DNA from: Egibacteraceae bacterium
Lineage (GTDB): Bacteria; Actinomycetota; Nitriliruptoria; Euzebyales; Egibacteraceae
Assembly: GCA_030446775.1 (NCBI GenBank)
Contig: JAUJMQ010000002.1
Span: forward strand, 1-64,000
Length of the DNA: 64,000 bases
Direction: 5' to 3'
This document shows, piece by piece, positions 1,974-39,308 of the stretch (position 1 is the stretch's first letter; each line of letters begins with the position of its first letter). The translations under genes were made by a program, and so were the position numbers. The notes below the pieces were generated by a model. It was given only the letters and a program-made list of their open reading frames with translations, was not told where the DNA came from and made no database searches.

Positions 1974-2000
1974 GGCGGGTGGCGCGCCGCGGGACCGACC

Positions 2001-2006
2001 TACACT
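2001..2006 (+). promoter_or_regulatory. Probable -10 box (TACACT) before the foldase gene
   Basis: TACACT lies 41 bases before the GTG start of the SurA-like gene, in the short gap after mfd. The same hexamer occurs before uppS, greA and the PhoB-type regulator in this window, which is why it is called. No clear -35 was seen. Confidence 0.45.
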
Positions 2007-2046
2007 GGCCCGCATCCTCCCTCCCCGGACCAGGACTGTTGACATC

Positions 2047-3117
2047 GTGCACGTTTCGAACTCTTGGCGTCCCCTGCTGGCGGCGCTGCTCGCTGCCGCA
2101 CTGACCGCCTGTGGCACCGTCGGCGCGGGGGGAGACCCCAACGTCGCCGCGGTCGTCAACGGCACCGAGATCCCTGTCAGCGAGGTGGAGGAGCAGTTCG
2201 AGCAGGCCAAGAACAACCCCGAGGTCGCCACGCAGCTCGAGAGCGACACGGAGGGGACCGTCGCGGAGGGTCTGCAGGCCCAGATCCTGTCGCGGCTCGT
2301 GCTCGCCGAGATCCTCTCGGACTGGGCTGACGAGCTCGGCGTGACCGCGACCGACGAGGAGGTCGCCGCCGAGCGCGAGCAGGTCGTCGCCCAGGCCGGT
2401 GGCCAGGAGGCCTTCGACTCCCAGGTCGAGCAGGCGGGCTTCACCGACGAGCAGGTCGACGAGCTGCTGAGCCAGCGCGTCCTGCAGCTCGAGATCGCCG
2501 ACGAGGTCGGCGGCGGAGAGGTCAGCGACGCCGACGTCGCCGCGTTCTACGAGGAGAACGCCGACAGCCGCTTCGGGGAGAAGGCGACGATCCGCCACAT
2601 CCTCGTCGAGGACCAGCAGACGGCGCGCCGGCTGCGGCGCCAGCTCGACAACGGCGCCGACTTCGCCGAGCTCGCCCGCGAGCACTCCACCGACCCGGGC
2701 AGCGCCGAGAAGGGAGGGGACCTCGGCGAGTACTCGCGCGGCCAGGGCCTGGTTCCCGAGTTCGAGCAGGCGGCCTTCGACGCGGAGGTCGGCGAGCTCG
2801 TCGGTCCCGTCCGCACCGAGTTCGGCTTCCACCTCATCGAGGTGACCGACAAGGCGCCGCCGCAGACGTTGGAGGAGGCGACTCCCGAGATCCGCCAGGA
2901 GCTGGCCCAGACCCAGCAGGGCGAGCAGCTGGAGGCGGCGCTGCGCGAGCGCACCGAGGCGGCCGAGGTGACGGTCAACCCGCGCTTCGGCACCTGGGAC
3001 GCCGAGACCGGCGAGGTCCGCCCGAGCGAGCCGCTGGGTGCCGTCACCGAGTCTCCCGGGGCGCCCGCGGGTGGCACCGAGCCGGCGACGGTCCCCACCG
3101 AGACCGTCACCGAGTAG
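2047..3117 (+). CDS. SurA/PrsA-like peptidylprolyl isomerase lipoprotein (parvulin foldase)
   Basis: Extracytoplasmic folding factor that catalyses proline cis-trans isomerisation. The 356-residue protein starts at GTG 2047 with a lipoprotein signal (LLAALLAAALTAC, lipobox cysteine near residue 21). A SurA_N-like chaperone region follows (VVNGTEIPVSEVEEQFEQ, about residues 35-170), then a parvulin domain (IRHILVEDQQTARRL ... FAELAREHSTDPGSAEKGGDLG ... FGFHLIEV, about 180-275). The tail is Thr/Pro/Glu-rich. The 545-aa ORF in the track starts inside mfd and is not used. In M. tuberculosis a lipoprotein gene (lpqU) sits near this point of the cluster; a parvulin here is a lineage difference. mazG follows 5 bases later, so co-transcription is likely. 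Confidence 0.9.
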   Translation: MHVSNSWRPLLAALLAAALTACGTVGAGGDPNVAAVVNGTEIPVSEVEEQFEQAKNNPEVATQLESDTEGTVAEGLQAQILSRLVLAEILSDWADELGVTATDEEVAAEREQVVAQAGGQEAFDSQVEQAGFTDEQVDELLSQRVLQLEIADEVGGGEVSDADVAAFYEENADSRFGEKATIRHILVEDQQTARRLRRQLDNGADFAELAREHSTDPGSAEKGGDLGEYSRGQGLVPEFEQAAFDAEVGELVGPVRTEFGFHLIEVTDKAPPQTLEEATPEIRQELAQTQQGEQLEAALRERTEAAEVTVNPRFGTWDAETGEVRPSEPLGAVTESPGAPAGGTEPATVPTETVTE

Positions 3118-3122
3118 GCGGC

Positions 3123-4290
3123 GTGGCGCGGCTCGTCCTCGTCGACACCGCCGACGAGCTGCCCGGGCTGCTGCCGTTGCACGCCTGGTCGGCGCTCATG
3201 TCGTCCGATCTCGTCGTCGTCGGCGACGCCGGGCACCCGTTCCTGACCCACCTCGAGCTCGCCGAGCTGCGGACCGAGGTGCTCGCGTCCGCCGGCGACC
3301 GGACCGCGAGCCTGTCGCGCACCGACCTGCTGTCGGGGCTGCACCCCGCCGACAAGGCCCGCGCCGAGGCGGTCGTCGACCGTGTCCGCGACGAGGGCGA
3401 GGTCGTCTACCTGCTCGGGACCGGCGACGGGGAGGGCTTCGTTCGCACGCTGGGCATGGAGGCGGCCCGGGCCGGCGTCGAGGTCGAGGTCGTACTTCGG
3501 CGTCCGTCCGTCGCGGGTGCGGCTGCTCGACCTCGTGCGGACCGAGCAGCGGCTGCGCGCCCCGGACGGCTGCCCGTGGGACCTCGAGCAGGACCACCGC
3601 ACCCTCGCGCGCTACGCCGTCGAGGAGGTCTACGAGCTGCTCCAGCGAGGCGATCGAGGCGGGGAGCCCGACGCGATCCGCGAGGAGCTCGGTGACGTCC
3701 TGCTCCAGGTCGTGTTCCACGCCCAGATCGCCGAGGACAGCGGCGCCGGCTTCACGATCGACGACGTCGCGGGCGGGATCGCCGCCAAGCTCGTCGCCCG
3801 CCACCCCCACGTCTTCGGCGACGTCAGCGTCACGGGCGCCGACGAGGTCGTCGCCAACTGGGAGGCGCTCAAGGCGGCCGAGAAGCCCGAGCGCAGCGGC
3901 GTGTTCGACGGCGTCCCAGCGGCGCAGCCGGCGCTCGGCTACAGCGAGAAGCTGCAGCGGCGCGCCGCCGCCGTCGGGTTCGACTGGCAGGCCGACGTCG
4001 AGGCCGCCGACCGCATCCGCGCCGAGCTCGACGAGTTCCTCGTCGCCGGCGACGACGCCGGCCGCGAGCACGAGATCGGCGACGTGCTCCTGAGCGTCGT
4101 CGGTCTCGCGCGCCGGCACGGCCTCGATCCGGAGCTGGCGCTGCGCGGTGCCGCCGGCCGCTTCCGGCGGCGCTTCGAAGCGGCCGTCGCACAGGCCGAC
4201 CGGCCGGTGCCGGAGCTGTCGTCGCTGTCCCGCGACGAGTGGCTGGCGCTGTGGGACGCCGCCAAGGCCACCGAGACCCGACCAGGATGA
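3123..4290 (+). CDS. mazG: MazG nucleoside triphosphate pyrophosphohydrolase, frameshifted
   Basis: House-cleaning enzyme that hydrolyses (d)NTPs to monophosphates. The reading starts at GTG 3123 with the Rossmann-like N-terminal region found in actinobacterial MazG (MARLVLVDTADELPGLLPLHAWSAL), then must switch frame near 3494. Frame 3 reads ...EVEVVLRR, while the conserved continuation FGVRPSRVRLLDLVRTEQRLRAPDGCPWD is in frame 1. Removing the A at 3494 (gtcgtActtcggc) restores one open frame of about 388 codons. The MazG metal-binding motifs EEVYELL and EELGDVLLQVVFHAQIAED are intact. The position between mfd and eno is the conserved one. The indel is more likely a sequence error than true inactivation, but only reads can decide. 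Confidence 0.9.
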
Positions 4291-4324
4291 CGGCCTGCGA
4301 GTCGCGGGCGACCGGCTCGTGCTG

Positions 4325-6196
<1,872 letters not shown>

Positions 6197-6207
6197 TCTG
6201 CTCCCGG

Positions 6208-6249
6208 TTTGTTCTGATCTCCCTGGCCGGCCAAGGGGATCAGAACAAA
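6208..6249. terminator. 42-bp inverted repeat, probable terminator; relative of the one at 49968
   Basis: TTTGTTCTGATC ... GATCAGAACAAA form 12-base perfect arms around an 18-base GC-rich centre that also pairs partly. It starts 12 bases after the ftsB stop. A second element of the same length with identical arms but a different centre is at 49968-50009. The 3' arm ends in AAAC, so read on the opposite strand it ends in a T-run. It could be a bidirectional terminator or a small dispersed repeat. Confidence 0.6.
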
Positions 6250-6307
6250 CTCGCAGGGAGGGTGGCGGGGGGTGTGCGAGTCGCGGTGGGGAGGCAGGCT
6301 GGCGGCG

Positions 6308-6864
6308 ATGGACGACGCGCTCCGCCCGGCTGCCGACGCCGGCTACGAGGCCCAGCTGGCCCGGCCGGCCGCCGAGCCGCGTGACGCCGCGCTCGCGGCC
6401 GCGATGATCGGCCGGCCGTTGCGCGGCTCGTCCGCGGTCGCCGTGCGCTGCGGCTGGGGGCTGCCGGCGGTCCTGCGGGTCTCCCCCAGCTGTCCGACGG
6501 CACCCCGTTCCCGACGCTGTTCTGGCTGTCGTGCCCGCTGGCCAGCCGTCACGTCGGCCGGCTGGAGGCCGATGCCGCGATGGCCGGGCTGAACGAGCGG
6601 CTGCGCGCCGACCCCGACCTGTCCGACGCGTACGCCGCAGCCAGCGAGCGCTACGTGGCCGCCCGCGACCGCCTCGGCTCACCCGTCCCCCGGGGTGACA
6701 GCGCCGGCGGGATGCCGACGCGGGTGAAGTGCCTGCACGCGCTGTACGCCCACCACCTCGCGACGCGCGACAACCCGCTGGGGGCCTGGGTGGCCGAGCA
6801 GATCGAGCCGATGGCGTGCCCGCGTCCCTGCGTCCGCCCCCAAGACGCCCCCGAGCCGCGATGA
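6308..6864 (+). CDS. DUF501 family protein, frameshifted
   Basis: Conserved actinobacterial protein of unknown function, always near ftsB and ppx. The N-terminal part is in frame 2 from ATG 6308 (AAAMIGRPLRGSSAVAVRCGWGLPAVLRVSP). The rest is in frame 1: QLSDGTPFPTLFWLSCPLASRHVGRLEADAAMAGLNERL and the family signature SAGGMPTRVKCLHALYAHHLATRDNPLG. The break is in a run of five C (6483-6487); six C would restore one frame (ctccccccagctg). This is the pattern of a homopolymer miscount. Corrected length is about 186 residues, normal for the family. The stop overlaps the ppx start by ATGA. Confidence 0.85.
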
Positions 6865-7784
6865 CCAGGGTCGCCGTCGTCGACGTCGGGACCAACTCTG
6901 TGCGCCTGCTGGTCGCCGACGCCGCCGACGGCTCCCTGGAGGCCGTCGCGCGCACGATGACGATCACCCGCCTCGGCGCGGGGGTCGACACGACCGGGCG
7001 CCTCGACGACGCGGCCCTGGCCCGGACGCTGGACTGCATCGGCGGCTACGCCAGGCGCTGGCGGGAGCTCGGGGCGCAGCGGGTGCGCATCTCGGCGACG
7101 TCGGCGGTCCGCGACGCCGCCGACCGGGACCGCTTCTTTGACGGCGTCCGCGCCCGGGCCGGCGCCGAGGCGGAGGTCCTGTCCGGCGAGCAGGAGGCCC
7201 GGACCGCCTTTCTCGGCGCGACGGCGTCGGTGGACGGCGAGCCGCCGTTCCTCGTGCTCGACATCGGCGGCGGGTCCACCGAGCTGATCCTCGGCACGGA
7301 CGCCCCGGAGGCGATGACGAGCCGGCAGCTCGGCTGCGTCCGGCTCACCGACCGGGCCCTGCATGACGACCCTCCCACCCGGGCGCAGCTGTCGGCGGCG
7401 ACCGGGCTGGTCGACGAGCAGCTCGACGGCGCCGCCGCGGTGATGGACCCGTCGCGGGGCCGCACGCTCGTCGGCGTCGCGGGGACCATCACGACGGTCG
7501 CGGCGCTGTACGGGGAGCTGCCGGCGTACCTGCCCGAGCGGATCCACGGCACGCGGGTGCCCTTCGACGGCGTCGACGCGGTCACCGAGCGGCTGGCGGC
7601 GCTGACCACCGCGCAGCGCGCCGAGCTGGGGCCCATGGCGCCGGGCCGTGAGGACGTGATCGTCGCCGGCTGCCTCATCCTGCGGCGGGTGATGGAGCGC
7701 TTCGGCTTCGCCGAGGTGCTCGCCAGCGAATCCGACATCCTCGACGGGCTCGCGCTGGCGCTGGCGGCCGCGCCCGGCGCCTGA
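6861..7784 (+). CDS. ppx: Ppx/GppA phosphatase family protein (exopolyphosphatase / pppGpp phosphatase)
   Basis: Member of the actin-like ASKHA fold that removes terminal phosphate from polyphosphate or pppGpp. The 307-residue protein has the N-terminal phosphate loop VDVGTNSVRLLVAD, the switch SATSAVRDAADRDRF, the catalytic EAEVLSGEQEA, and the second loop FLVLDIGGGSTELILG. The C-terminal helical half ends in ASESDILDGLALAL. It is the short one-module form, as in M. tuberculosis Rv1026 at the same place. Start ATG 6861 overlaps the DUF501 stop, so it ends the eno-ftsB-DUF501-ppx operon. Which substrate it prefers cannot be read from sequence. Confidence 0.93.
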   Translation: MTRVAVVDVGTNSVRLLVADAADGSLEAVARTMTITRLGAGVDTTGRLDDAALARTLDCIGGYARRWRELGAQRVRISATSAVRDAADRDRFFDGVRARAGAEAEVLSGEQEARTAFLGATASVDGEPPFLVLDIGGGSTELILGTDAPEAMTSRQLGCVRLTDRALHDDPPTRAQLSAATGLVDEQLDGAAAVMDPSRGRTLVGVAGTITTVAALYGELPAYLPERIHGTRVPFDGVDAVTERLAALTTAQRAELGPMAPGREDVIVAGCLILRRVMERFGFAEVLASESDILDGLALALAAAPGA

Positions 7785-7816
7785 GCGCCCGCCCGGAGCT
7801 CCGGCGCGACGTCAAG

Positions 7817-7837
7817 CCGCCCCCCCGGCGGGGGCGG
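7817..7837. terminator. GC hairpin between convergent genes
   Basis: CCGCCCC ... GGGGCGG forms a strong stem with a short loop, 33 bases after the ppx stop and before the convergent UspA-like gene. There is no T-tract, which is common for terminators in very GC-rich Actinobacteria. Confidence 0.4.
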
Positions 7838-7839
7838 TG

Positions 7840-7915
7840 GCGATCCAGGTCAACCCGCCGCGGGCGCGATCAGGTCAACCCGCCGCAGGCGCGATCAGGT
7901 CACCCCGCCGCAGGC
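7840..7915. repeat. Three tandem 25-bp repeats
   Basis: The unit gcgatcaggtcaacccgccg + caggc occurs three times back to back (7840-7865 with one extra C, 7866-7890, 7891-7915), differing at only a few bases. It fills the intergenic space up to the stop of the UspA-like gene. No spacer structure, so it is not a CRISPR. Function unknown. Confidence 0.85.
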
Positions 7916-7918
7916 GCT

Positions 7919-8344
7919 TCAGCGCGCGCTGCTCGGTTCGGCCGCGCCGATCACGTGGGTGACCGGCACGTCCACGGCGCGCTCGACGCGCCGCACGAGG
8001 TCGGTCCGCAGCCACCGCGACATCCCTGGTGGCAGCGTCGACAGGACGACCTCGTCGGCCGGCTCGCGCCGCAGGGCGTCCAGGACCGCGTCCACGGGGC
8101 GGGCGTCACCCACCTCGCCGGTGACCGGGCAGCCCAGCGTGGCGAAGGCCTCGAGCGCGGCGTCGAGACGGCGCTGCGCGCCGGCGCGGTCGTCGGTCTC
8201 GTTGTGGCTCCAGCCGCGGGGGTCCGGTCCCGCCGGCACGACGACGTGGATGTGGCAGCCGCCCGCCTCGGACCGCTCCCGCAGCAGGTTCGCGAGCTCG
8301 CGACCGCCCAGGGTGTGGTTGGCGACGACGAGGATGCGTGACAT
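7919..8344 (-). CDS. Universal stress protein-like (UspA-fold) protein
   Basis: 141-residue single-domain protein with the UspA-like Rossmann beginning MSRILVVANHTLGGRELANLL, a conserved DARPVDAVLDALRREPADEVVLSTLPPGMSRWLRTDLVRRVER segment, and the ending VDVPVTHVIG. The glycine-rich ATP loop of classical UspA (GxxGxxxxxxxGS) is replaced by TLPPGMSRWL, so ATP binding is uncertain. It is the actinobacterial single-domain type often found with stress genes. A GGAGGTG ribosome site precedes ATG 8344. A CBS-domain gene lies upstream on the same strand, 82 bases away, and the two may be co-expressed. Confidence 0.75.
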   Translation of the reverse strand: MSRILVVANHTLGGRELANLLRERSEAGGCHIHVVVPAGPDPRGWSHNETDDRAGAQRRLDAALEAFATLGCPVTGEVGDARPVDAVLDALRREPADEVVLSTLPPGMSRWLRTDLVRRVERAVDVPVTHVIGAAEPSSAR

Positions 8345-8426
8345 GTCGGCACCTCCGCTGGCGACGCCCCGCGGGCGGCCTGCGGCGAGCCTACGCCCGC
8401 CACGCCCGCGGCGGAACCCCTGCGGC

Positions 8427-8906
8427 TCAGGTCGTCCGGTCGGCCCGGCGCAGCGCCCGCACGAGGTCGCCTCGCGTGACGATGCCCACCACCCTGCGGG
8501 CGTCGTCGACGACGGGGACGCGCGTCACGCGGCGGTCGTGGATCAGTGTCGCCACATCCTCGACCGTCGCCTCCTCGCCGACCGCCGGGGGGTCGTCCTC
8601 CATGACGTCGGCGACCGTCTGGCCGAGCGCCGCGCGGACCTCCTCTTCGAAGCGCCTGCGCTCACCGGGCAGGGGGATGTACGCACCGAGGATCTCGATG
8701 GTCGTCGGGCCGTGCAGGCGCGCCTCGGACACGAGCAGGTCGCTGTCGTCGAGCAGCCCGACCAGGCGCCCGCCGGAGTCCACGACCGGCGCGCCGCTGA
8801 TGTCGGCGTCGACGAGCAGGGCGACGGCGTCCTCGACGGTGGTGTGGGGCGTCAACGTCGTCACGGGCGACGTCATCACGTCGGTGACAGGCAGGTCCCT
8901 GGGCAT
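8427..8906 (-). CDS. CBS-domain pair protein
   Basis: 159-residue protein made of a single CBS pair (Bateman module), which usually binds adenosyl nucleotides. Repeat 1: VTDVMTSPVTTLTPHTTVEDAVALLVDADISGAPVVDSGGRLVGLLDDSDLL. Repeat 2: VADVMEDDPPAVGEEATVEDVATLIHDRRVTRVPVVDDARRVVGIVTRGDLVRAL. No catalytic or membrane domain is attached. It resembles stand-alone CBS proteins that act as energy or stress sensors in Actinobacteria. Partner and ligand are unknown; the adjacent UspA-like gene on the same strand suggests a stress role (inference). Confidence 0.85.
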   Translation of the reverse strand: MPRDLPVTDVMTSPVTTLTPHTTVEDAVALLVDADISGAPVVDSGGRLVGLLDDSDLLVSEARLHGPTTIEILGAYIPLPGERRRFEEEVRAALGQTVADVMEDDPPAVGEEATVEDVATLIHDRRVTRVPVVDDARRVVGIVTRGDLVRALRRADRTT

Positions 8907-8984
8907 GCTCGCTCTCCGGTCGGGGCCGGTCAGCCTAACGGCCGGGCTATCGTGAGCCTTCCGTCACCGCGAGGAAGGCAGGCC

Positions 8985-9293
8985 GTGCTCGTCTGGTTCT
9001 CCGTCACACCGATCGGCACCGGCTCGGCGAGCGTGTCGCGGGACGTCGCACGCGCCCTCGACGCCGTCACGGCCACCGGGATCCGCGCGACCACCGACGC
9101 CTCCGGCACCCTGCTCGAGGGCGACTGGGACGCCTGCATGGCGGCGCTGCGAGCCGCCGGCGACGCGGTGCTCGAGGAGGCGCCGAGGGTGTCGTTCACC
9201 TGCAAGCTCGACATCCGGCGCGACAAGCCGGACCAGTCGGGCGCCGACAAGCTCGCCAGCCTCGACGCCGCACGCCGGGAGACGACCGCATGA
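8985..9293 (+). CDS. MTH1187/YkoF-type thiamine-binding family protein
   Basis: 102-residue protein of the MTH1187 (DUF77) superfamily. Seen: MLVWFSVTPIGTGSASVSRDVARALDAVTATGIRATTDASGTLLEGDWDACMAALRAAGDAVLEEAPRVSFTCKLDIRRDK. The PIGTG, the T...GT.LEG.W and the K.D.R elements are typical. Relatives bind thiamine or its precursors, but no thiamine gene is nearby, so the ligand is open. The start is fixed by GAGGAAGG (8971-8978) seven bases before GTG 8985; the 444-aa ORF in the track begins in antisense sequence of the previous genes. The stop overlaps the following mini-gene (ATGA). Confidence 0.85.
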   Translation: MLVWFSVTPIGTGSASVSRDVARALDAVTATGIRATTDASGTLLEGDWDACMAALRAAGDAVLEEAPRVSFTCKLDIRRDKPDQSGADKLASLDAARRETTA

Positions 9294-9391
9294 TGATGAC
9301 ACCGCAGACGCAGCGCACCGCCGTGATCGTGCTCGCCGTCGTGCTCGGCGTCGCGCTGGTGCTCAGCCTCGTCGGCCCCTTCCTGACCTGA
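9290..9391 (+). CDS. 33-residue single-span membrane peptide
   Basis: Too short for the ORF track. ATG 9290 overlaps the upstream stop by ATGA, giving MMMTPQTQRTAVIVLAVVLGVALVLSLVGPFLT. Residues about 10-32 form one hydrophobic helix with a short polar N-terminus. The overlap suggests translational coupling to the thiamine-binding-type gene. Short one-helix proteins of this kind recur in Actinobacteria, but I cannot name a family. It could be a membrane anchor or a chance ORF; the coupled start and clean helix favour a real gene. Confidence 0.55.
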   Translation: MMMTPQTQRTAVIVLAVVLGVALVLSLVGPFLT

Positions 9392-9418
9392 GCCCGCCAC
9401 CCTGAACGCGCGCCCACC

Positions 9419-10672
9419 CTGAACGCGCCTGCCCCGAACGGGATCGTCGAGCGCCTGGCGGCGGGCCTCGCCGCGCAGCCGCCCGCGACGGTCGCCGCCC
9501 CGCGGCTGGGGCGCATCGGCGCGGCCCTGGCGATCGTCGCGCCGGCGGGGCCCCACGACGCCGAGATCGTCTACACCCGCCGCCGCGACGACCTGCGCGC
9601 CCACCCGGGTCAGATCTCGTTTCCCGGCGGGCGCGTCGACCCCGGCGAGACGGTCGCCGAGGCGGCGGTGCGCGAGGCCGTCGAGGAGGTCGGCCTGCGG
9701 CCGGATTCGGTCGCGCTGCTGGGATCCCTCCCGCCGCTGTTCATCCCGCCGTCGCGGTTCTGGCTGCAGACCGTCGTCGCCGCATGGGAGGCGCCCCACC
9801 GCCTGGTCGCGGCAGAGGCGGAGGTCGCCGAGGTCCTGGCCGTGCGCCTGTCCCTGCTGACCGACCCCGCCACCTGGCGGTCGGTGCGCCTGACGGTCTC
9901 GGGCTGGTCGTGGGCGTGGGCACTGCCGGGCGGGCACCTGCTGTGGGGCGCGACCGGCGTCGTCACCGCGTCGCTGCTCGCCGTCCTCGACCCCGGGTGG
10001 AGTCGCGGGCTGCGGCCCGCCGACCTGGCCGACCGGGAGGTCCGCCCCCGGCGCCGCGCTGCACGGACCGCGTCGACCCGCGCGCTGCTGCCCGGGACGC
10101 CCGAGCGCTCGGCGCGCGAGCTCGCGGCTGCCGGCGGCTGGCGACCTCCGGCCGGCCATGGCGGCACCGCCGCCGCGGGCGCCGTCGTCGCCGAGGCGGT
10201 CACGCGGGTGGCCGGCCCCGGCGCCCAGCGCGTGCTCGTGCTGGCCGGCGACGGTGGTGACGGTGCCGTGGGCCGTGCCGCCGCCCGCAACCTGTCGAGG
10301 CTCGGCCTGCCGGTCGCCGTGGTCGCAACCGCGGAGTTCCCGGGGACGCTTCCCGAGGCCGACGTGGTCGTCGACGCCCTCGTGGGCGACGGCCTGCGCG
10401 GGCCGCTGCGCGGGACGCCGCTGGCGATGGCCGCCGCCCTGCGCGAGTCGGCTGCGACGGTCGTGAGCGTCGATCTGCCGAGCGGCCTGTCACCGGTCGA
10501 CGGGATCGTCGGCGAGCTCGTCGCGGCCGACGTCACCGTCGAGCTCGCGCCCCCGCGGCCGGTGCTGTCGTCACCGCGGGTCGCCCCCTTCGCCGGTGAC
10601 CGCTACGCGGTGCTGCCCGGCGGGCCGGGAGAGCCCGGCGTGCTCGTGCGGGTCGTCGACCTGGCTCCGTGA
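9419..10672 (+). CDS. Nudix hydrolase fused to a YjeF_N-like (NAD(P)HX epimerase-type) domain; start uncertain
   Basis: The N-terminal part is a CoA-pyrophosphatase-like Nudix domain: QISFPGGRVDPGETVAEAAVREAVEEVGL contains the full GX5EX7REUXEEXG box. The first ATG/GTG in the frame (GTG 9668) would cut that box in half, so translation must start upstream; only CTG 9419 or an undetected indel offers a start. The C-terminal half (about residues 220-410) resembles YjeF_N epimerases: VLVLAGDGGDGAVGRAAARNLSRLGLPVAVV, ADVVVDALVGDGLRGPLRG, VVSVDLPSGLSPVDG. The GNNGGDG loop is shortened to GDGGDG. Both parts lie in one frame with a basic linker (RRRAARTAS). Fusion of a nucleotide pyrophosphatase with a nicotinamide-repair epimerase would suit metabolite repair (inference). 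Confidence 0.7.
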   Translation: MNAPAPNGIVERLAAGLAAQPPATVAAPRLGRIGAALAIVAPAGPHDAEIVYTRRRDDLRAHPGQISFPGGRVDPGETVAEAAVREAVEEVGLRPDSVALLGSLPPLFIPPSRFWLQTVVAAWEAPHRLVAAEAEVAEVLAVRLSLLTDPATWRSVRLTVSGWSWAWALPGGHLLWGATGVVTASLLAVLDPGWSRGLRPADLADREVRPRRRAARTASTRALLPGTPERSARELAAAGGWRPPAGHGGTAAAGAVVAEAVTRVAGPGAQRVLVLAGDGGDGAVGRAAARNLSRLGLPVAVVATAEFPGTLPEADVVVDALVGDGLRGPLRGTPLAMAAALRESAATVVSVDLPSGLSPVDGIVGELVAADVTVELAPPRPVLSSPRVAPFAGDRYAVLPGGPGEPGVLVRVVDLAP

Positions 10673-17861: not shown

Positions 17862-17935
17862 GAAACGTGCGGTCCGCCGTCGACATGGCGGAGAGGTCTG
17901 CGTATCCCCCACGTGGGGTGGTGATACGGCTATGC

Positions 17936-17972
17936 AACGCCACCTGTGGTCATGCGACGGATGTCGAGGATG
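17936..17972. repeat. 37-bp direct repeat, copy 1 (native fumC 3' end)
   Basis: The segment beginning aacgccacctgtggtcatgc is identical to 18041-18077. In this copy it encodes the end of fumarase in the frame that continues from LREVVKEAGVLPDAEVDR, so it is the native one. Confidence 0.9.
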
Positions 17973-18040
17973 CGGTCGACCTCGGCATCGGGCAGCACGC
18001 CGGCTTCCTTGACCACCTCGCGCAGTACAACGGGCTACAG

Positions 18041-18077
18041 AACGCCACCTGTGGTCATGCGACGGATGTCGAGGATG
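18041..18077. repeat. 37-bp direct repeat, copy 2 (inserted copy inside fumC)
   Basis: Identical to 17936-17972. It sits where fumarase should read directly from LAKRALQ into VLREVVKEAG; removing about 52 bases here, flanked by GT on both sides, rejoins those two segments. It brings its own TAG stop. Confidence 0.85.
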
Positions 18078-19514
18078 GACCTGCAGCGCGCGCTTGGCGA
18101 GCAGCCGCGGAGCGCCGCGACGTGTCGTAGCCGATGGCCGGCACGAGGGCCGTGACGATCGTGAGGTTGCGCTCGCTGAGCTCGGTGCAGCGGTCGACGT
18201 TGGCCTCCAGGCCGTCGACGCACTGCCGCGCGAAGTTGTCGCACGACGTCGACAGCAGCCGCACGGACTCCAGGACGTTGCGCGCCATCACCGGGATGAA
18301 GACGTTGAGCTCGAACGCCCCCGACAGCCCGCCGACGGTGACCGCGGCGTCGTTGCCGACGACCTGGGCGGCGACCTGGGTCAACGACTCCGCAAGCACC
18401 GGGTTGACCTTGGCGGGCATGATCGACGAGCCGGGCTGCAGCTCCGGCAGCCGCAGCTCCATGAGGCCGGTCATGGGTCCCGAGCCCATCCAGCGGATGT
18501 CGTTGGCGATCTTCGTCGGCGACACCGCGACGACCTTGCACGCACCCGACAGCTCGACGAGCGCGTCGCGCGCCCCTGCGCCTCGAAGTGGTTGTCGGCC
18601 TCGCGCAACGCTTCGATCCCGGTGCGCCGGCGCAGCTCGGCGATGACGCCCGCGGTCATCCCCTCCGGCGCATTGAGGCCGGTCCCCACCGCGGTGCCGC
18701 CCAACGGCAGCTCCGCGACCCGCTCCAGCGCGGCGCGCACCCGGACGGCGCCCAGCTCGACCTGACGGGCGTAGCCGGAGAACTCCTGACCGAGCGTGAC
18801 CGGTGTCGCGTCCATGAGGTGGGTGCGGCCGGGCTTGACGACGTCGGCGAACTCGCCGGCCTTGCCGGCCAGCGAGGCGCGCAGCGTCTCCAGGGCCGGC
18901 AGCAGCCGGTCGACGCAGGCCCGGTAGGCCGCGACGTGCACGGCGGTCGGGAAGACGTCGTTGGACGACTGCCCGGCGTTGACGTGGTCGTTGGGGTGGA
19001 CGAGCTTGGAGCCGATTCTGCCTTCCAGGATCTCCGTGGCGCGGTTGGCGATGACCTCGTTGGCGTTGACGTTGGACGAGGTCCCCGAGCCCGTCTGGAA
19101 CACGTCGACGGGGAAGTGGGAGTCGAGCTTGCCGTCGGCGACCTCACCGGCCGCCTGGCTGATCGCCTCGAACTGCCGGTCGTCGAGCACCCCGTGTCGT
19201 GGTTCACGGCGGCGGCGCACGCCTTGATCAGTCCGAGGGCGGCGATGACCTCGCCTGGGATCGGCTGACCGGAGATCGGGAAGTTCTGCACGGCGCGCTG
19301 CGTCGAGGCTCCGTAGTAGGCGTCGGCGGGCACCTGCATCTCGCCCATGGTGTCGCGCTCGATGCGCGTGTCGGCCATCGGTCGGCTCCTGTCGGTGTCG
19401 CGGTCCGTCGGGTGTCTGGAGCAGCCCTAGGCAACCGATCCCGGTCGCCGGGGCGGGGCACGGGCGCCGCCAGGCTGGCCGCGTGCCACAGCATCCCCGC
19501 TTGTACCGCCGGTC

Positions 19515-30426: not shown

Positions 30427-30538
30427 GCACCTCAAACGCCGGGCGGCTTGCGTCCAACGACTCCCTTCGGGAGACCGCCTAATACGCACCTCAAACGTCG
30501 GGCGGCTTGCGTCCAACGACTCCCTTCGGGAGACGGCC
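30427..30538 (-). promoter_or_regulatory. Tandem pair of 53-bp structured elements upstream of the GGDEF-EAL gene
   Basis: Two copies (30427-30479 and 30486-30538) match at 51 of 53 positions and repeat every 59 bases, 21 bases before the start of the CHASE-GGDEF-EAL gene. Read on that gene's strand, each contains a perfect hairpin CTCCC-GAA-GGGAG followed by TCGTTGGACGCAAGCCGCC and GTTTGAGGTGC; GGCGG before the hairpin can pair with CCGCC after it. GGACGCAAGCC recalls the GACGCAAAGCC core of c-di-GMP-I (GEMM) riboswitches, but the GCAAACC partner segment is absent, so it is not a recognised member. A leader RNA or a protein-binding array are both possible. Confidence 0.6.
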
Positions 30539-30603: not shown

Positions 30604-32134
30604 TCAGGAGTGGTCCGGCAACCCGGCCCCGTCCGTGCGCTTGGACGGAGCGGCCGTAGGCAGTGCGTCGCCGTTCGCCCCGACGCGCGCGAACAGCGCC
30701 CGCAGGTCCAGCCCGGTGAGGTCCGAGCCGATCTGCAGGCCCTGCTCGAGGTTCGCCGCGACGCTTCGGGTCAGCTGCGACGCCCCGTCGGTGGAGATCA
30801 CCGTCATCTTGCCGACCCCGGAGATGGGCTCGGCGGCCGCGCGCACCACCTGCGGCAGCACGTTGACGACCATCTCGAGCACCGCGGCGTCGCCGTACTC
30901 GCGGAAGGCCTGCGCGCGCTTGTCCATCGCCTCGGCCTCGGCCTGGCCACGGGCCAGCGTCGCGGCCGCCTCCGCCTCGCCCTCGCGCTGCACCGCCTCG
31001 GCGATGGCCTCGCGCCGCAGCTTCTCCGCGGCCCCACGCGCGGCCCTCGACCTCCTCGGCGGCGGCCAGCGCCGCGCGGCGCAGCTTCTCGCCCTCACCG
31101 GACAGCCGCGCCGCTCGGCCTCCGCCTGGGCGGCGGCGATCGCGGCCTGCTTGTCCGCTCCGCGGTGAAGATGGCGGCGTTGCGCGCGGCCTGCGCCTCC
31201 TGCTCCACGCGGTAGCGCGCCGCGTCGGCCGGCTTGCGGACGTCGGTGTCGAGCCGCCGGTCGGTCAGCGCGGCGTTGGCCTGGGCGACCTTCTCCTGCT
31301 CGGCGAGCACCTCCTGGTCGCGCGCCGCCTGCGCCAGCGGGCCGGCGGCGGCGGCACGCGCCGCGGCCGCGTCGGTCTCGGCCAGGATCTCGGCCTTCTT
31401 CAGGTCCAGGGTCCGCTGGCCGATCGCGATCTGCTCCTCGGCGAGCAGGCGCTCCTGCTCGGCGGCCTGCCGGGCCGCGCCTCGGCGATGGGCGCTTCCT
31501 TCTCCACCCGGGCGGCCTCGGGCCGGCCGAGGTCGGCGAGGTAGCTGCCCTCGGCCTGGATGTCCTGCAGCTGGAAGGTGTCCAGCGCAAGCCCCTGGTT
31601 GGTCAGCGAGGTCTCGGCCTCCTCGGCGACGGCGGAGGCGAACGCGGCGCGGTCCTTGATGATCTCGTCGACGGTCAGCCGGCCGACGATCGCGCGCAGC
31701 GAGCCGGCGAGCACCTCCTGGGTGAACGTGTCGATGCCCTGCTGCTGGTTCATGAAGCGCTGCGCCGAGGCGCGGATCGCGTCCTCGTTGCCGCCGACCT
31801 TGACGATCGCGACGCCCTCCAGGTCGCACTTGATGCCCTGAGCGGACACGGCGCCGCGGATGCCGACGGGTATCCGCCGCGACGACAGGTCCAGCGAGCC
31901 GAGCTTCTGCACGAAGGGCAGCACGAACACCGACGCGCCCATCACGACCTTCTGGCCCGACAGGTCGGTGGAGACCTCACCGGTCTCCGGATTGCGCACC
32001 GGGCCCTTGCCCTTGCGGCCGGTGATGATGAAGGCCTCGTTGGGGCCTGCGACCTTCACGCGGCTGACGATGAGCAGGGCGACGAGCAGCAGCAGCACGA
32101 CGCCGCCGACGACGAGGGAGAGCACGACGTCCAT
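30604..32134 (-). pseudogene. Flotillin / SPFH-domain protein, broken by several frameshifts
   Basis: Membrane-microdomain scaffold of the flotillin family. From ATG 32134 (AAGGAG upstream): one N-terminal helix (MDVVLSLVVGGVVLLLLVALLIVSRVKVAGPNEAFIITGRKG), the SPFH domain (PFVQKLGSLDLSSRRIPV ... RASAQRFMNQQQGIDTFTQEVLAGSLRAIVGRLTVDEIIKDRAAFASAV), then the long Ala/Glu coiled coil and a C-terminal part VVRAAAEPISGVGKMTVIST. The frame changes near 31486, 31159, about 31115 and about 31035; each is explained by one or two missing bases in GC-rich runs. Corrected length is about 510, normal for the family. NfeD lies just upstream, the usual partner. Probably intact in the organism. Confidence 0.88.
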
Positions 32135-33587: not shown

Positions 33588-34810
33588 ATGGAGCCGCTGA
33601 CCCCCGCCGTCACGTCCGAGGTCGGCACGCTGCGCGAGGTCATCGTGCACCGCCCCGGCTTGGAGCTGCGCCGCCTGACCCCCGCGAACAAGGACGCGCT
33701 GCTGTTCGACGAGCTCGTCTGGGTCGCCAAGGCTCAGGAGGAGCACGACGGGTTCGCCGCGCTGCTGGGCGACCAGGGCGTCAACGTGCGGCTGTTCGCC
33801 GACCTGCTGTGCGACACGCTGACCGACGAGGGGCTGCGGCTTGAGGTCATCGAGCAGGTCGCCACGGAGGACGCCTGCGGCGTCGAGCTCGTGCAGCGGG
33901 TCCGCGGGCACCTCAAGGAGCTGCCGGTCGCGCAGCTCGCGACCCACCTCATCGGGGGCCTGACCGTGCAGGAGGTCCCGGGCGCCGGCGACGGCTTCGT
34001 CGGCGGGGTGCTCGGACCGGCCGCCTTCCTGCTGCCGCCCCTGCCCAACGCGGTGTTCACCCGTGACCCGTCGGCGTGGATCGGCGACGGCGTCGTCCTG
34101 TCGCCGATGCACAAGCCCGCGCGACGCGCCGAGCGGCGCATGTGGCAGACGATCTACAGCAACCACCCCGCCTTCGCCGGTGCGCCGGACCGGGTGCGCT
34201 ACGGCGACGCGCAGCGCGACTACTTCCCCGCCACGATCGAGGGCGGCGACATCCTCGTGCTGTCGGCCGACTGCGTGGCGATCGGGCTGTCCGAGCGCAG
34301 CCACCCCGTCGCGGTCGAGAACCTCGCCGCGCGGCTGTTCGACAACGGCAACGCGAAGTGGGTACTGGCGATCGACCTGCCCAAGGCCCGGCGGACGATG
34401 CATCTCGACACGGTCATGACCGTCGTCGACACCGACGCCGTCGTGCTGTGGCCCCGGGCGGTGCGGCTGCTCGACGCCTACCGGATCCAGCCGGGCGGCG
34501 GCGGCCGCATGAAGGTCACCGTCGAGCCCGACCTCGTCAAGGCGGTCGCCGACGGGATGGGCACCGACGCGCTGCGGGTCATCACGACCGGCGAGGACGA
34601 GGTGCTCGCCGACCGCGAGCAGGACGACGGCAACAACACCCTCGCGTTGCGCCCGGGGTGGTCGTCGCCTACGAGCGCAACGCCGACACCAACCGCCGGC
34701 TGGCCGACGCCGGTGTCGAGGTGCTGACGATCTCGTCCTACGAGCTGCCACGAGGCCGCGGCGGTCCGCGCTGCATGTCGTGCCCGGTGGTCCGCGACCC
34801 GCTGGGCTGA
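33588..34810 (+). CDS. arcA: Arginine deiminase, frameshifted near the C-terminus
   Basis: Hydrolyses L-arginine to citrulline and ammonia. Seen: [94 protein letters not shown], and [18 protein letters not shown] with the catalytic His/Asp. After DDGNNTLAL the frame changes at about 34649: one missing G (ttg[g]cgcccggg) links to [50 protein letters not shown]. The catalytic cysteine (CMSCP) is in the second part. Corrected length about 408, as usual. No arcB/arcC or antiporter is nearby, so it may work alone (acid or nitrogen stress; inference). Confidence 0.92.
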
Positions 34811-34811
34811 C

Positions 34812-35168
34812 GTGGGCGCCGTCGACCTGGAGGTCTACGACGGGCACTGGGATGACGCCGACCCCCACGCCCGGTTCAAGGCCGAGGTCGCGGCGTACAC
34901 CCGCGCCGACCCTTTGCCCGCGCTGCGTGGCCTGGCCGACCTGACCGGTGTGCCGCTCCGGGGCGCTCGCGCTACGCGCTGGTCAAGTGGGCGGCCGAGG
35001 GGTCGAGGCGCTGCTGGCGCTGGGGCCACGCGCGGTGGAACGGCTGTGGGCCGTCGTCGAGGAGGCCGAGCGGGACGGCTCGACGTCGCGCGGCTGCGCG
35101 CGTGGGCCCTGCTTCGCGGGCAGCTGGCGTGGCTGCGCGCCGGACTGGACGACCCCCCGCCCGGCTAG
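34812..35168 (+). pseudogene. DUF6027-like protein, broken by several indels
   Basis: GTG 34812, one base after arcA. Frame 3 reads MGAVDLEVYDGHWDDADPHARFKAEVAAYTRADPLPALRGLADLTGVPL; then pieces in other frames read RYALVKWAAEGS, ALLALGPRAVERLWAVVEEAERDGSTSR, and finally LRAWALLRGQLAWLRAGLDDPPPG in the original frame up to the stop. Joined, this gives a protein of about 115 residues resembling the actinobacterial DUF6027 group, of unknown function. Three or more small indels are needed. The close spacing to arcA suggests co-expression. Family name is from memory of typical sequences, so moderate confidence. Confidence 0.6.
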
Positions 35169-35195
35169 CCGCCGAGAGGGCGGATCACGGTGACG
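35161..35195. repeat. Left 35-bp direct repeat flanking the decayed-gene island (att-like)
   Basis: Begins ccggctagccgccgagaggg and matches 32 of 35 bases of 38828-38862, in the same orientation. On the minus strand it encodes ...VTVIRPLGG-stop, close to the GreA end ...VTAIRPLGN-stop. It overlaps the last bases of the DUF6027-like gene. Confidence 0.7.
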
Positions 35196-35435
35196 TCGGA
35201 GCCCTCGAGCCAGCCGAGCGCGGAGCAGGAACCATCAGCTCACCGGTGGAAGGCTGCGTCCTGACCCTGGGGGGCCGTCCCGGGGCTACTCCGCAACTTC
35301 TCCACTGACTGCGGCACTCGAGCGAGGCGCCGCGTCCATCCAAGGTCGGCAACCCGCAGTGAACCTCCTGGTCCGGGCAGGCGTCGTATACGTGGAGCGG
35401 GCGAGCGGGGGAGTCGGCCGGAGAGGTGGAGTTGG

Positions 35436-35589
35436 ATGGATGAGGACTTCACAGCATTCTGCAGTCGTGAATATGTTCGCGTAGTAGCATCAATGAGCCT
35501 CTACGCGCAGCTCCGACCTTGCCGAGGACTTCGCTCAAGAGGCGCTCGCCAGAGCGTGTGCTGATTGCATTCTTATCCGGCGCACCTGA
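35436..35589 (+). pseudogene. Fragment of an ECF-type sigma factor (region 2)
   Basis: ATG 35436 reads MDEDFTAFCSREYVRVVASMSLYA, and one frame over SDLAEDFAQEALARACADC continues it; together these match sigma-70 region 2 (the pattern F..FY...Y..VV...L...D...AEDLAQE.F..A). A stop follows at 35587, so only about 50 residues remain, and regions 3-4 are lost. Codon use is AT-richer than the neighbours (gca, gta, tca), in line with foreign origin. The 267 bases before it (35169-35435) contain no gene. Confidence 0.6.
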
Positions 35590-35591
35590 AA

Positions 35592-35624
35592 GGCGGCGTC
35601 CCCGGAGCACGCCCCGGGGCCGCC
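35592..35624. terminator. Strong hairpin, probable terminator
   Basis: GGCGGC-GTCCCCGG ... CCCCGGGG-CCGCC pairs as a long stem followed by GTCCTTG. It stands between the sigma fragment (plus) and the M14 gene end (minus), so it could end both. Confidence 0.55.
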
Positions 35625-35652
35625 GTCCTTGCCTGACGCCGTCCTTGCCTGA
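35621..35652. repeat. Perfect 16-bp tandem duplication
   Basis: cgccgtccttgcctga occurs twice in a row and abuts the M14 peptidase stop codon. The second copy is the base of the hairpin's tail. Probably a local duplication. Confidence 0.8.
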
Positions 35653-36945
35653 TCAGTCGCGGACCGTCATGTCGAGCTTGCGCGGCAGCCGCCCGGCCGC
35701 CTCGGCCCCGCTGGCACCGGGGATGCGCTCCTGCTGAGGCAGAATGAGCAACTCCGCGAGCGCGGGTCGACGTTCGCGACGCTGCCGCTGGCAGTGTGGC
35801 CTCCAGCGCCGACCACACCAGCGAGGTGGCAGCGCCGGCGCGCCGTGAGCGCTCACGAGCGGGCAGCGGGTCGTCGGACTGGCCGCTGATCTCCAGCAGG
35901 ACGCTGCCACCGACCAGCCCTTCCTCCCGTTCTCGATGCGCTCGCTGCCCAGCAGCCCGTAGGCGTTGCGCGCGATGCCCTGCGATAGTCGCCGCCCTCG
36001 TAGCGGGTGAGCTCCGCGTCAGGCAGGCGCAGCGACGTGCCCTTCATGATGAGCGCGAGCTGCTTGGAGAAGGCGACCGACTCAGGGGCGACCTCCTCGT
36101 TGGTCGGCCACAGCACCGAGGCGACCACGTCCGCGCCCGGGGTGTTCGCGACCGGATTCGCGTCCTCGGGCACCCGCAGCAGACCCTGGTTGTGCACATC
36201 GATCACCCAGATCGGCTCGAAGCGGTCATAGACCCCTCGTACGGCCCTGGCCTCGGCGACCGGGTTCCGGTCGGGGTCGTAGATGGCGGCCCTCCAGATC
36301 GGGGTTGCAGCGAACCTGCCAGCTCTGCGACCAGTCGGCCCAGTGGTAGCGGTTGACGTCGTAGGAGTACTCATCCGTCTCGTCGTACTGGGTCGAGAAC
36401 ACGCCGCGACCCTGGTTGAGGAGTGCCGGATCGACCGAGCCGTCCTCTGCGAAGCAGTCGCGGCTATCGCGCGGAGGCGCCGTGAAGTCGGTGTTGCCGC
36501 GGGTGTCGAAGGCGTAGCCGTCGGGGTTGACCAGGGGCATGACGAGCACGTACAGCTCGTCGAGCACGTCGTCGACCTGCTCGTTGTCCCGGGTGAAGCG
36601 GCCAATGAGCTCGTAGGCCGACTGGAACCCGGTCGCCTCGTTGCCGTGCTGAGAGGCGATCACCAGCACGGGCGTCTTGGTGGGATCGCCGATCTTGACG
36701 AGCAGGATGTCGCGACCGCGACGCGTGCGGCCGACCGACTCGACGTCGAAGGGGGCCGCCGCGCGGCGCTCGAAGGCACGCAACGACCGGCCGAGCTGGT
36801 CGGGGCGGCTCGCCTGCTCGGACGGAGCGAGCGGCTGGCGGGCGGCTGGTGCGGGTTGCGCCATGACGCTGGGCGAAAGGACCGCGAACAGCGCTACGAG
36901 AACGAGGAGCGGGGCGAGTCGCCTATTCAATTTGAACCCCTTCAC
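35653..36945 (-). pseudogene. Secreted M14-family zinc carboxypeptidase, frameshifted
   Basis: ATG 36945 begins a Sec signal peptide (MKGFKLNRRLAPLLVLVALFAVLSPSVMA). The M14 domain has ESVGRTRRGRDILLVKIGD, the zinc motif HGNEATG (HxxE), LVMPLVNPDGYAFDTRGN and DYSYD-type substrate residues (TDEYSYDVNRYHWADW). The frame changes near 36291 (NPDLEG to AAIYDPDRNPVAEARAVRGVYDRFEPIWVIDVHNQG, with the third zinc ligand DVH), near 35982 (GGDYR to QGIARNAYGLLGSERIENG), and again before ALAELLILPQQERIPGASGAEAAGRLPRKLDMTVRD-stop. About 430 residues when rejoined. It lies inside the repeat-bounded island, so true decay is more plausible here than for housekeeping genes. Confidence 0.8.
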
Positions 36946-37041
36946 CCTGGGTGGAACGAACGCGCGGCATCATCCGTCTGACCGCTATGCCCGTCAAGTG
37001 GCCTTCTGACGGAAACCATAGATCGCTTGGGACCCCGGAGC

Positions 37042-37262
37042 TCATCCCTCGACGGCATGCCGCAACCGTGCGACCAGCGCCTGGGCGTCGAGGGCGCCCG
37101 TGGCTCGCGCACGAAGAAAACGTCGCGCACGTCTGTGCCCAACGTCTCCAGCCGAGCGCCGGTGACGTGCAGCCCTGCGTCCGCAAGCGCGCTGGCGACC
37201 CGGTAGAGCAGACCGGGGACGTCGTGGGCGACCACCTCGATGCGACACGCTGGAGACGCTGC
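37042..37262 (-). pseudogene. 3' remnant of glnD (PII uridylyltransferase), C-terminal ACT domain
   Basis: Minus strand reads CRIEVVAHDVPGLLYRVASALADAGLHVTGARLETLGTDVRDVFFVREPRA and, after one shift, LDAQALVARLRHAVEG-stop. This is the closing ACT domain of GlnD (IEV.A.D.PGLLYR.A.AL...G....A...T.G..V.DVF.V). Nothing of the nucleotidyltransferase or HD domains precedes it; the sequence switches to a plus-strand MNT gene at the junction. A truncated leftover, about 70 residues. Confidence 0.65.
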
Positions 37263-37545
37263 TGACGATGAGCTGCGACGGCGCCGTGACGAGATCCTCC
37301 CCATCGCCGCCCGGCGAGGAGCCCGCAACGTCGGGGTGTTCGGTCCGTGGCCCGTGGTGAGCAGGACAGCGACAGCGACCTCGACCTGCCCGGCGACCTG
37401 GAGGCCGGCAGCAGCCTGTTCGACCTCGGCGGACTGCTCATGGATCTGCAGGATGCGCTCGGCTGGCCCCGTCGACGTTGTCGAGCTCGACGGGCGGCGC
37501 CCACGGTCGAGAAGCCGCGTGCTCGCCGAGGCGGTTGCGCTGTGA
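37240..37545 (+). pseudogene. MntA-type nucleotidyltransferase (antitoxin-like), two compensating frameshifts
   Basis: Reads [24 protein letters not shown], then after one missing base at about 37343 [40 protein letters not shown], then back via an extra C at about 37468 to [25 protein letters not shown]-stop. The GSVARGE...SDSDLDL motif is the MNT nucleotidyltransferase signature (GSxARGxxxxxSDxDL). In MNT-HEPN toxin-antitoxin pairs this protein AMPylates and silences the HEPN toxin. The stop overlaps a HEPN fragment start (GTGA), exactly as in such operons. Confidence 0.7.
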
Positions 37546-37595
37546 GGGCCGACACGGAGCGGGTGCTCGACATGGTCGAGCAAATCGAGCTAATC
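37542..37595 (+). pseudogene. 5' fragment of a HepT/HEPN toxin
   Basis: GTG 37542 overlaps the MNT stop. The product starts [18 protein letters not shown], matching the first helix of HepT-like HEPN RNases, then diverges into unrelated sequence ([14 protein letters not shown]...). The catalytic RX4-6H motif is absent, so the toxin is lost. The junction near 37590 marks another recombination or deletion point. Confidence 0.5.
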
Positions 37596-37829
37596 CTGTT
37601 GCCGACGAACGTACTCCAGAAGCTGGATGATCGGCAGTCGACCATCCGACTGCATTCGCTGGCCTCGCCGCCGCCGGTAGAAGCTAACGTTGGCGCCACC
37701 AGCAACGGGCGCCGAGACGTTGAGAATGACCAGACAATCGACTCGTCCGACCGGCCGAGCAGCGCGGCGCTTACGACCGCTAGTCGAAGGGCCGCCGGGG
37801 TGGTTCAACGCTCCACCGGGGCCGTCGGA

Positions 37830-38308
37830 CTCTAGGGAGTCACACAGCGTCGCAGCGGGGGAGGATGCCTTCTTCGTGTGGGGCGGCGTAGACCACCCTG
37901 GCACGGGAGCGCCGCTCTCCGACGGTGCCATCTATTTCCCCTCACTCAACGCCTGGGAGGTGAGCCTCCAGCTCCAATTGCAGGCCCTGCCGCCAAGTCT
38001 CAGCCTCGTCGGATGGCGAGCTCTTTGTTTGGAATGGGCAGGAGGCAGCGAGCTATAGCGTGCAGGGCAGAGATTGGAAGGAACTGTCGTGCAGTCCACG
38101 TGCGCAGCCCGCGCCGCTGGGCGCCGTCTGGACTGGTTCCGAATTCATCATCGTCGGCGACAGGAGCCGGACAAGCGATGAGACAAATGGACTCGCCTAC
38201 CAGTCCCGACACCGGCCGGTGGCGGTCCTATCCATAACACCGGTGACACTGAACGTTGGCTCAGTAGCATGGACCGGTCGAGAAGTAGCAGTGGTTGGCG
38301 ACCACTAG
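37830..38308 (+). pseudogene. Degenerate Kelch-type beta-propeller fragment
   Basis: Pieces in different frames resemble Kelch repeats: EDAFFVWGGVDHPGTGAPLSDGAIYFPSLNAWE, ELFVWNGQEAASYSVQGRDWKEL, and APLGAVWTGSEFIIVGDRSRTSDETNGLAY then VTLNVGSVAWTGREVAVVGDH-stop. The repeated pattern (W.G.E..V.GG / A..Y.P....W) is visible, but at least three frame changes and internal stops separate the parts. Base composition is clearly less GC-rich than the core genes. A decayed gene, or an unrecognised one with errors. Confidence 0.5.
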
Positions 38309-38827
38309 GACAGGAATAACGCTTCACGTGATCACACTGAAAGGGCGGTGGGCACCGCTTACGATACGAACATGCAACCGCCGCCGAGCCCGGCCTGCTC
38401 GACCTCCCCGCCGCTGTCACAGCCTGACCCTACGATGCAACAAGTGGAGGTCACCTACCGAAATCCCACGCCGACCGGAACATCCTCAATCGTTGAGCAG
38501 TACCGCCTTACCGACGCCACGCAGGTCGTTCGGCACCAGCTGCGGTCACCTTCCGCAATCTCTTCGGCCCGCCGCAACTACGTGAAGGCTTGGAGCAGAG
38601 GCTCGCGACCGGCCAAAAGCGGAGGGCGGCGTCCAGCGCCCGGGCGGTAGGGGTTCGCCACAGGTTCCACCATCACAGGATGTCATGACGTGTAAACCGC
38701 ACCCTTATACGCGCTTATGGATGGTTATGAGCCCCATGGGAGAACCGGCCGGCGGACAGAGCCGAGGATCACGCCTCGTCTGGCGAGGGAAGTTGTTCAC
38801 CGGAAGGGCCCGTGCTGGTTGATCGCC
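38309..38827. other. Gene-poor, lower-GC stretch
   Basis: No convincing gene. ORF 38348-38650 gives VEVTYRNPTPTGTSSIVEQYRLTDATQVVRHQL, which could be a remnant of a small beta-strand domain, but I cannot place it. Bases 38660-38760 are distinctly AT-richer (ttatacgcgcttatggatggttatgag). It ends at the right direct repeat. Confidence 0.5.
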
Positions 38828-38862
38828 CCGGCTAGTTGCCGAGAGGGCGGATCGCGGTGACG
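38828..38862. repeat. Right 35-bp direct repeat, at the 3' end of greA
   Basis: Begins ccggctagttgccgagaggg; 32 of 35 bases match 35161-35195. It covers the last nine codons of greA plus its stop, the sort of gene end that site-specific integrases use. Confidence 0.7.
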
Positions 38863-39308
38863 GTCACCTTGAACTCCCCGGCGGGCGCCGAGTACGAGCG
38901 GGACTCGCCGACCTTGGCGCCCAGCAGCGCCTTGCCCAGCGGCGAGTTCGCGCTCACGACGCCGATGCCGCCCGCCGGCCGGTCCTCGCGACTGCCGACG
39001 AGGAAGGTGTCGGCGTCGCCGTCGGCGTCGACGGCCGTGACCACCATGCCCGCCGCCACCGCGTCGCCCTGCGGCGCCTCGCCGACCTGCGCGTCGCGCA
39101 GCATGTCGGTCAGCTGGCGGATGCGGGCCTCCATCTTGCCCTGCTCTTCCTTGGCCGAGTCGTACTCGGCGTTCTCCGACAGGTCGCCGTGGGAGCGGGC
39201 GACCTCGATCGCCTTGGAGGCGCGCGCGCGCCCGTGCGTCGTGAGGTCGGCGAGCTCGGCGCTGAGACGGTCGTAGGCAGACTGGGACAGCCAGACGGTG
39301 TCGCTCAC
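38832..39308 (-). CDS. greA: Transcription elongation factor GreA
   Basis: 158 residues, the family length. It rescues backtracked RNA polymerase by stimulating transcript cleavage. The N-terminal coiled coil (about 1-78) contains LSQSAYDRLSAELADL and the tip motif ARSHGDLSENAEYDSAKEEQ with the acidic pair that enters the polymerase channel; the C-terminal FKBP-like domain (about 82-158) ends GKALLGAKVGESRSYSAPAGEFKVTVTAIRPLGN. GTG 39308. It is divergent from the Fpg/Nei gene, and its 3' end carries one of the island repeats. Confidence 0.96.
   Translation of the reverse strand: MSDTVWLSQSAYDRLSAELADLTTHGRARASKAIEVARSHGDLSENAEYDSAKEEQGKMEARIRQLTDMLRDAQVGEAPQGDAVAAGMVVTAVDADGDADTFLVGSREDRPAGGIGVVSANSPLGKALLGAKVGESRSYSAPAGEFKVTVTAIRPLGN

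Follow-up and report, generated by a model that had tools for sequence, protein, structure and literature searches.

The 64,000-nucleotide stretch of DNA analysed here (the window), part of the draft genome of an Egibacteraceae bacterium (G000; 2.40 Mb, 78 contigs, 59.8 % complete), carries at positions 35196-38826 a block of 3.63 kb that is absent from relatives and enclosed by two directly repeated copies of the end of greA. Our preferred reading is a genuine insertion at the 3' end of greA, probably made by a site-specific recombinase that has since been lost. Among the individual explanations considered, the remnant of such a site-specific integration comes out best, at somewhat less than even confidence.

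The repeat pair, initially annotated as 32 identical bases of 35 at 35161-35195 and 38828-38862, could be refined to 36 nt (35160-35195 and 38827-38862, both on the plus strand and in the same orientation), of which 33 are identical, with a start-to-start spacing of 3667 bp. Allowing up to three mismatches, the 36-nt sequence matched only these two sites in the window and none in shuffled windows, and the entire 2.40-Mb draft contains just these two copies. Its edges are sharp: on the greA side none of the 9 bases directly beyond it match (0 of 9), and neither edge can be extended significantly. As first proposed, the right copy is the terminus, stop codon included, of an intact greA (38832-39308, minus strand; Pfam GreA_GreB_N and GreA_GreB, 2.1e-27 and 4.5e-17), whose minus strand reads TVTAIRPLGN*, and the left copy encodes on the same strand the GreA-like end VTVIRPLGG*. 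The left copy starts within the last codons of the DUF6027 gene and adjoins its stop, and a single CTAG serves both the DUF6027 stop and that of the greA-like end, forming a convergent junction; the repeat thereby runs 6 bp beyond the greA stop into the DUF6027 end. Because this CTAG is common to both genes, the left copy appears to be the displaced native greA end, still in place at the ancestral junction, and the right copy, the present greA end, its replacement. Alternatively, and as the initial annotation had itself considered, the left copy might be the terminus of a second greA, a paralogue now decayed, since it encodes a plausible GreA end with a stop. This is very improbable: similarity collapses directly past the repeat, genomes of the family have one greA (a second, distant match exists only in G010), and none of the relatives compared has a tandem greA at this locus.

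In relatives, the gene order arcA-(DUF6027)-greA-fpg-MFS is kept without the island. The left native flank in the window consists of arcA, encoding arginine deiminase (33588-34804, plus strand; Pfam ADI 3.8e-80), and the DUF6027 gene (34812-35168, plus strand; Pfam DUF6027 1e-15), the TAG stop of which overlaps the left repeat. arcA, with or without DUF6027, adjoins greA in at least seven relatives, the nearest named ones being different genera and not strain-level relatives. The empty site predicted by the initial annotation, with DUF6027 joined to greA, exists in G014, where DUF6027 runs directly into the greA end, and arcA is adjacent to greA in G006, G003, G004, G021, G023, and G008. Because relatives show this empty site, we read 35196-38826 as inserted and the gene order of this sequence as departing from the ancestral one. 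Other genes fill the arcA-greA gap in G005 (one protein of ~250 aa), G016 (several genes), G002 (DUF6027 and a glutamine amidotransferase-like gene), and G015 (a GGDEF protein), all these identities being read from sequence; neither greA repeats nor integrases were found there. From these comparisons, the arcA-greA gap seems to be a permissive spot for different genes.

Such permissiveness would also suit an insertion without any site-specific integrase, in which the incoming DNA came from a relative and included that relative's greA end. On the right, it would have entered by homologous recombination inside greA, and on the left by an illegitimate event that spared 36 bp of the recipient greA end. 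With three differing bases, the tails look as they would if they stemmed from two strains. However, this scenario does not predict the 6 bp by which the repeat extends beyond the greA stop and into the end of DUF6027, and the island is not known from any close relative, so that we regard the scenario as unlikely.

The composition of the insert is foreign. In the tetranucleotide comparison suggested with the initial annotation, its profile was the most atypical (rank 0 of 261 equal windows), and its GC content is 0.669 versus 0.73. The outer parts, 35196-35590 (GC 0.641) and 37600-38826 (0.633, in line with the lower GC first noticed at 37.6-38.8 kb), account for the deviant profile, whereas 35590-37600 is of ordinary composition (GC 0.69-0.70); the flanks have 0.74-0.75. 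Profile searches recovered most of the gene content initially described: the first part of an ECF sigma gene resembling sigE, weakly supported (35436-35590, plus strand; Pfam Sigma70_r2 E=0.076 on read-through, and tblastn), a near full-length secreted M14 carboxypeptidase (35668-36945, minus strand; Pfam Peptidase_M14 1e-16), the C-terminal ACT tail of glnD (37046-37268, minus strand; NF002895 E=6.6e-11, covering positions 701-761 of 782), an MNT-type nucleotidyltransferase in a broken frame (37258-37545, plus strand; PF01909 E=2.7e-4 on read-through), and a Kelch-repeat fragment with homologues in relatives (37819-38371, plus strand; Pfam Kelch_6 7.6e-5 on read-through). No model supports the proposed HEPN start, and no RNA family was detected in the insert. 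The best Kelch homologue among the relatives, in G077, has a sigma gene directly upstream, which the sigma piece of the insert matches in tblastn. The closest M14 homologue (G025, 439 aa, 52 % identical) sits among other neighbours than the island gene. We infer from this arrangement a nested insert, in which low-GC DNA with the SigE-like sigma and Kelch genes would later have been split by the block of M14, glnD tail, and MNT. Apart from this tail in the island, no glnD sequence was encountered in the draft; the gene is absent at 17862-17936 of the window, the place between a response regulator and fumC that it occupies in G021.

The initial annotation regarded these genes as decayed, a view that the pattern of frame breaks does not bear out. 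The M14 gene aligns with its G025 homologue over nearly the full length, with its motifs kept, no in-frame stop, and single-base frame shifts only. Closely spaced breaks run from arcA (34.65 kb) through DUF6027, which holds several, and the island up to the right repeat, and in the two genes beyond the left repeat they are as frequent as inside; the stretch from greA to 51.8 kb is free of them. In arcA, shortening of a G run breaks the frame near 34655, and a conserved motif lacks one codon. Aligned with its G005 counterpart, arcA gives split HSPs, and greA a single unbroken one (81 %). Similar clusters were found in fumC, in a flotillin-like gene, and in other contigs of the draft (contigs other than that of the window were sampled by region), with few in the loci of most relatives. 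Since single-base breaks of this kind also affect the native arcA and DUF6027, consensus error of an error-prone assembly accounts for at least part of the apparent decay and probably for much of the frame breakage.

Assembly error is also the strong rival to a real insertion. A join or gap-fill, from a strain mixture or an error-prone filler, might have brought together fragments with no connection to each other and framed them by two variants of the greA terminus, in which case repeat and island would not coexist in one chromosome; we consider this a serious possibility, though not the favoured one. For instance, the contig was scaffolded across gaps of 100 N, one of them flanked by exact 55-bp repeats, and other contigs contain exact 55-bp duplications, which are unmerged contig ends. 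Furthermore, the 3' tail of fumC is duplicated within the frame-broken gene (17936-17972 and 18041-18077), parts of one gene in contig C11 are present in two versions, one of them gap-rich, the frame breaks begin in arcA and stop at the right repeat, and the island itself is a mosaic of partial genes. On the other hand, the clear artefacts of this draft are either exact copies of 55 bp or no more than ~1.4 kb apart, and the greA repeat is inexact, 36 bp long, and 3.67 kb apart, which rules out a 55-bp contig overlap as its source. In addition, the outer parts of the insert have one unusual composition in common, as a single piece of DNA would, and the repeat edges fall on a biologically meaningful junction.

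Several features of the draft were recorded alongside. The exact 55-bp duplications lie on scaffold C16 (83959 and 132760), C6 (20917), C33 (11267), and C34 (3699), two of them flanking 100 N. The duplicated fumC tail is 37 bp, exact, 105 bp apart, and ends in GGVA* and GGVL*; fumC (17936-18077 and 18124-19366 of the window) is split into three frames, and the flotillin-like gene at 30661-31477 has several frame breaks. A dispersed repeat, ~55-60 bp long and with a palindrome inside (CTCCCTTCGGGAG), occurs between genes of this genome, often as tandem pairs, at 30427-30538 of the window, at C16 88889, 97622, 100266, 121257, and 127532, and at L223 1-54 and 3574-3627. C16 also holds an array with units of ~82 bp (140147-140535).

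Integration at the greA end is favoured because the 33-of-36 repeat has sharp edges, because relatives such as G014 show the empty site, and because the left copy keeps the original DUF6027/greA junction. Further reasons are the top-ranking atypical composition of the insert, the match of its sigma and Kelch pieces to neighbouring genes of G077, and the combination of regenerated gene and displaced fragment, which is the layout used to map tRNA-gene islands (PMC4383910). In the proposed course of events, the foreign 3.63 kb would have entered the greA 3' end in this lineage in the form of a circle with an attP that comprised the final nine greA codons and the stop. A site-specific recombinase, presumably of the tyrosine type, would have joined this circle to the greA end, regenerating greA with a new last codon and displacing the old end by 3.67 kb to its present place beside DUF6027. 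The integrase would have been lost afterwards.

The initial proposal of an integrated element attached at greA thus stands as regards the empty site, the foreign composition, the left repeat lying where the native end belongs, and the lack of a paralogue, and it found no backing from an integrase, recurrent use of the site, a viral attP, or literature precedent. Six-frame searches of 35160-38862 against Pfam, PHROGs, and NCBIfam revealed neither an integrase, as first noted, nor any phage or other mobility gene. Other insertions at the same end were likewise not encountered: none of the 57 greA loci of the class with a usable 3' flank (0.7-19 kb) has a second greA tail, the best second match being 25 of 36, which equals background. 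An exact scan of viral sequences for the repeat returned nothing; the one match of a degenerate attP scan (L129) lies inside a phage gene and was judged to be chance. The insert shows no DNA similarity to phages and one 180-bp match to a plasmid at 70 % identity. A greA apparently beside a provirus in IMG/VR (L230) was dismissed, as ilvA and a long run of C separate the two; along positions 1-9461 of this contig, carB-greA-ilvA is followed by a long C/G stretch and, behind it, phage terminase genes, and the contig is probably chimeric. What weighs against integration is therefore the lack of element genes, of a second tail in the 57 loci, and of a viral attP, together with three mismatches in the 36 bp, an error-rich stretch, and a scaffold with other duplicated ends.

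The Islander approach maps islands in tRNA genes by a regenerated gene and a displaced fragment, combined with an integrase filter (PMC4383910); the greA candidate has the former layout and fails the filter. Like Islander-type islands in tRNA and tmRNA genes and SGI1-type islands at trmE, its target keeps an end, a displaced end fragment lies opposite with foreign DNA between, and the direct repeat measures tens of bp. In contrast to these islands, the insert is only 3.6 kb, is devoid of integrase or mobility genes, and sits at greA, for which no report as attB was found in the literature searched. The locus likewise resembles the unmerged contig ends and error patches of draft metagenome assemblies, as the same draft has duplicated ends and clustered frame breaks. 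That the greA 3' end serves as attachment site of a hitherto undescribed small integrative element in this lineage, surviving here as an integrase-less remnant with a SigE/Kelch operon, is a doubtful, rather improbable extension of our reading. The locus is also a warning that clusters of frame breaks and duplications of gene tails in draft genomes can mimic a decayed island. If the insertion is real, greA would join the protein-coding genes whose 3' ends are integration sites.
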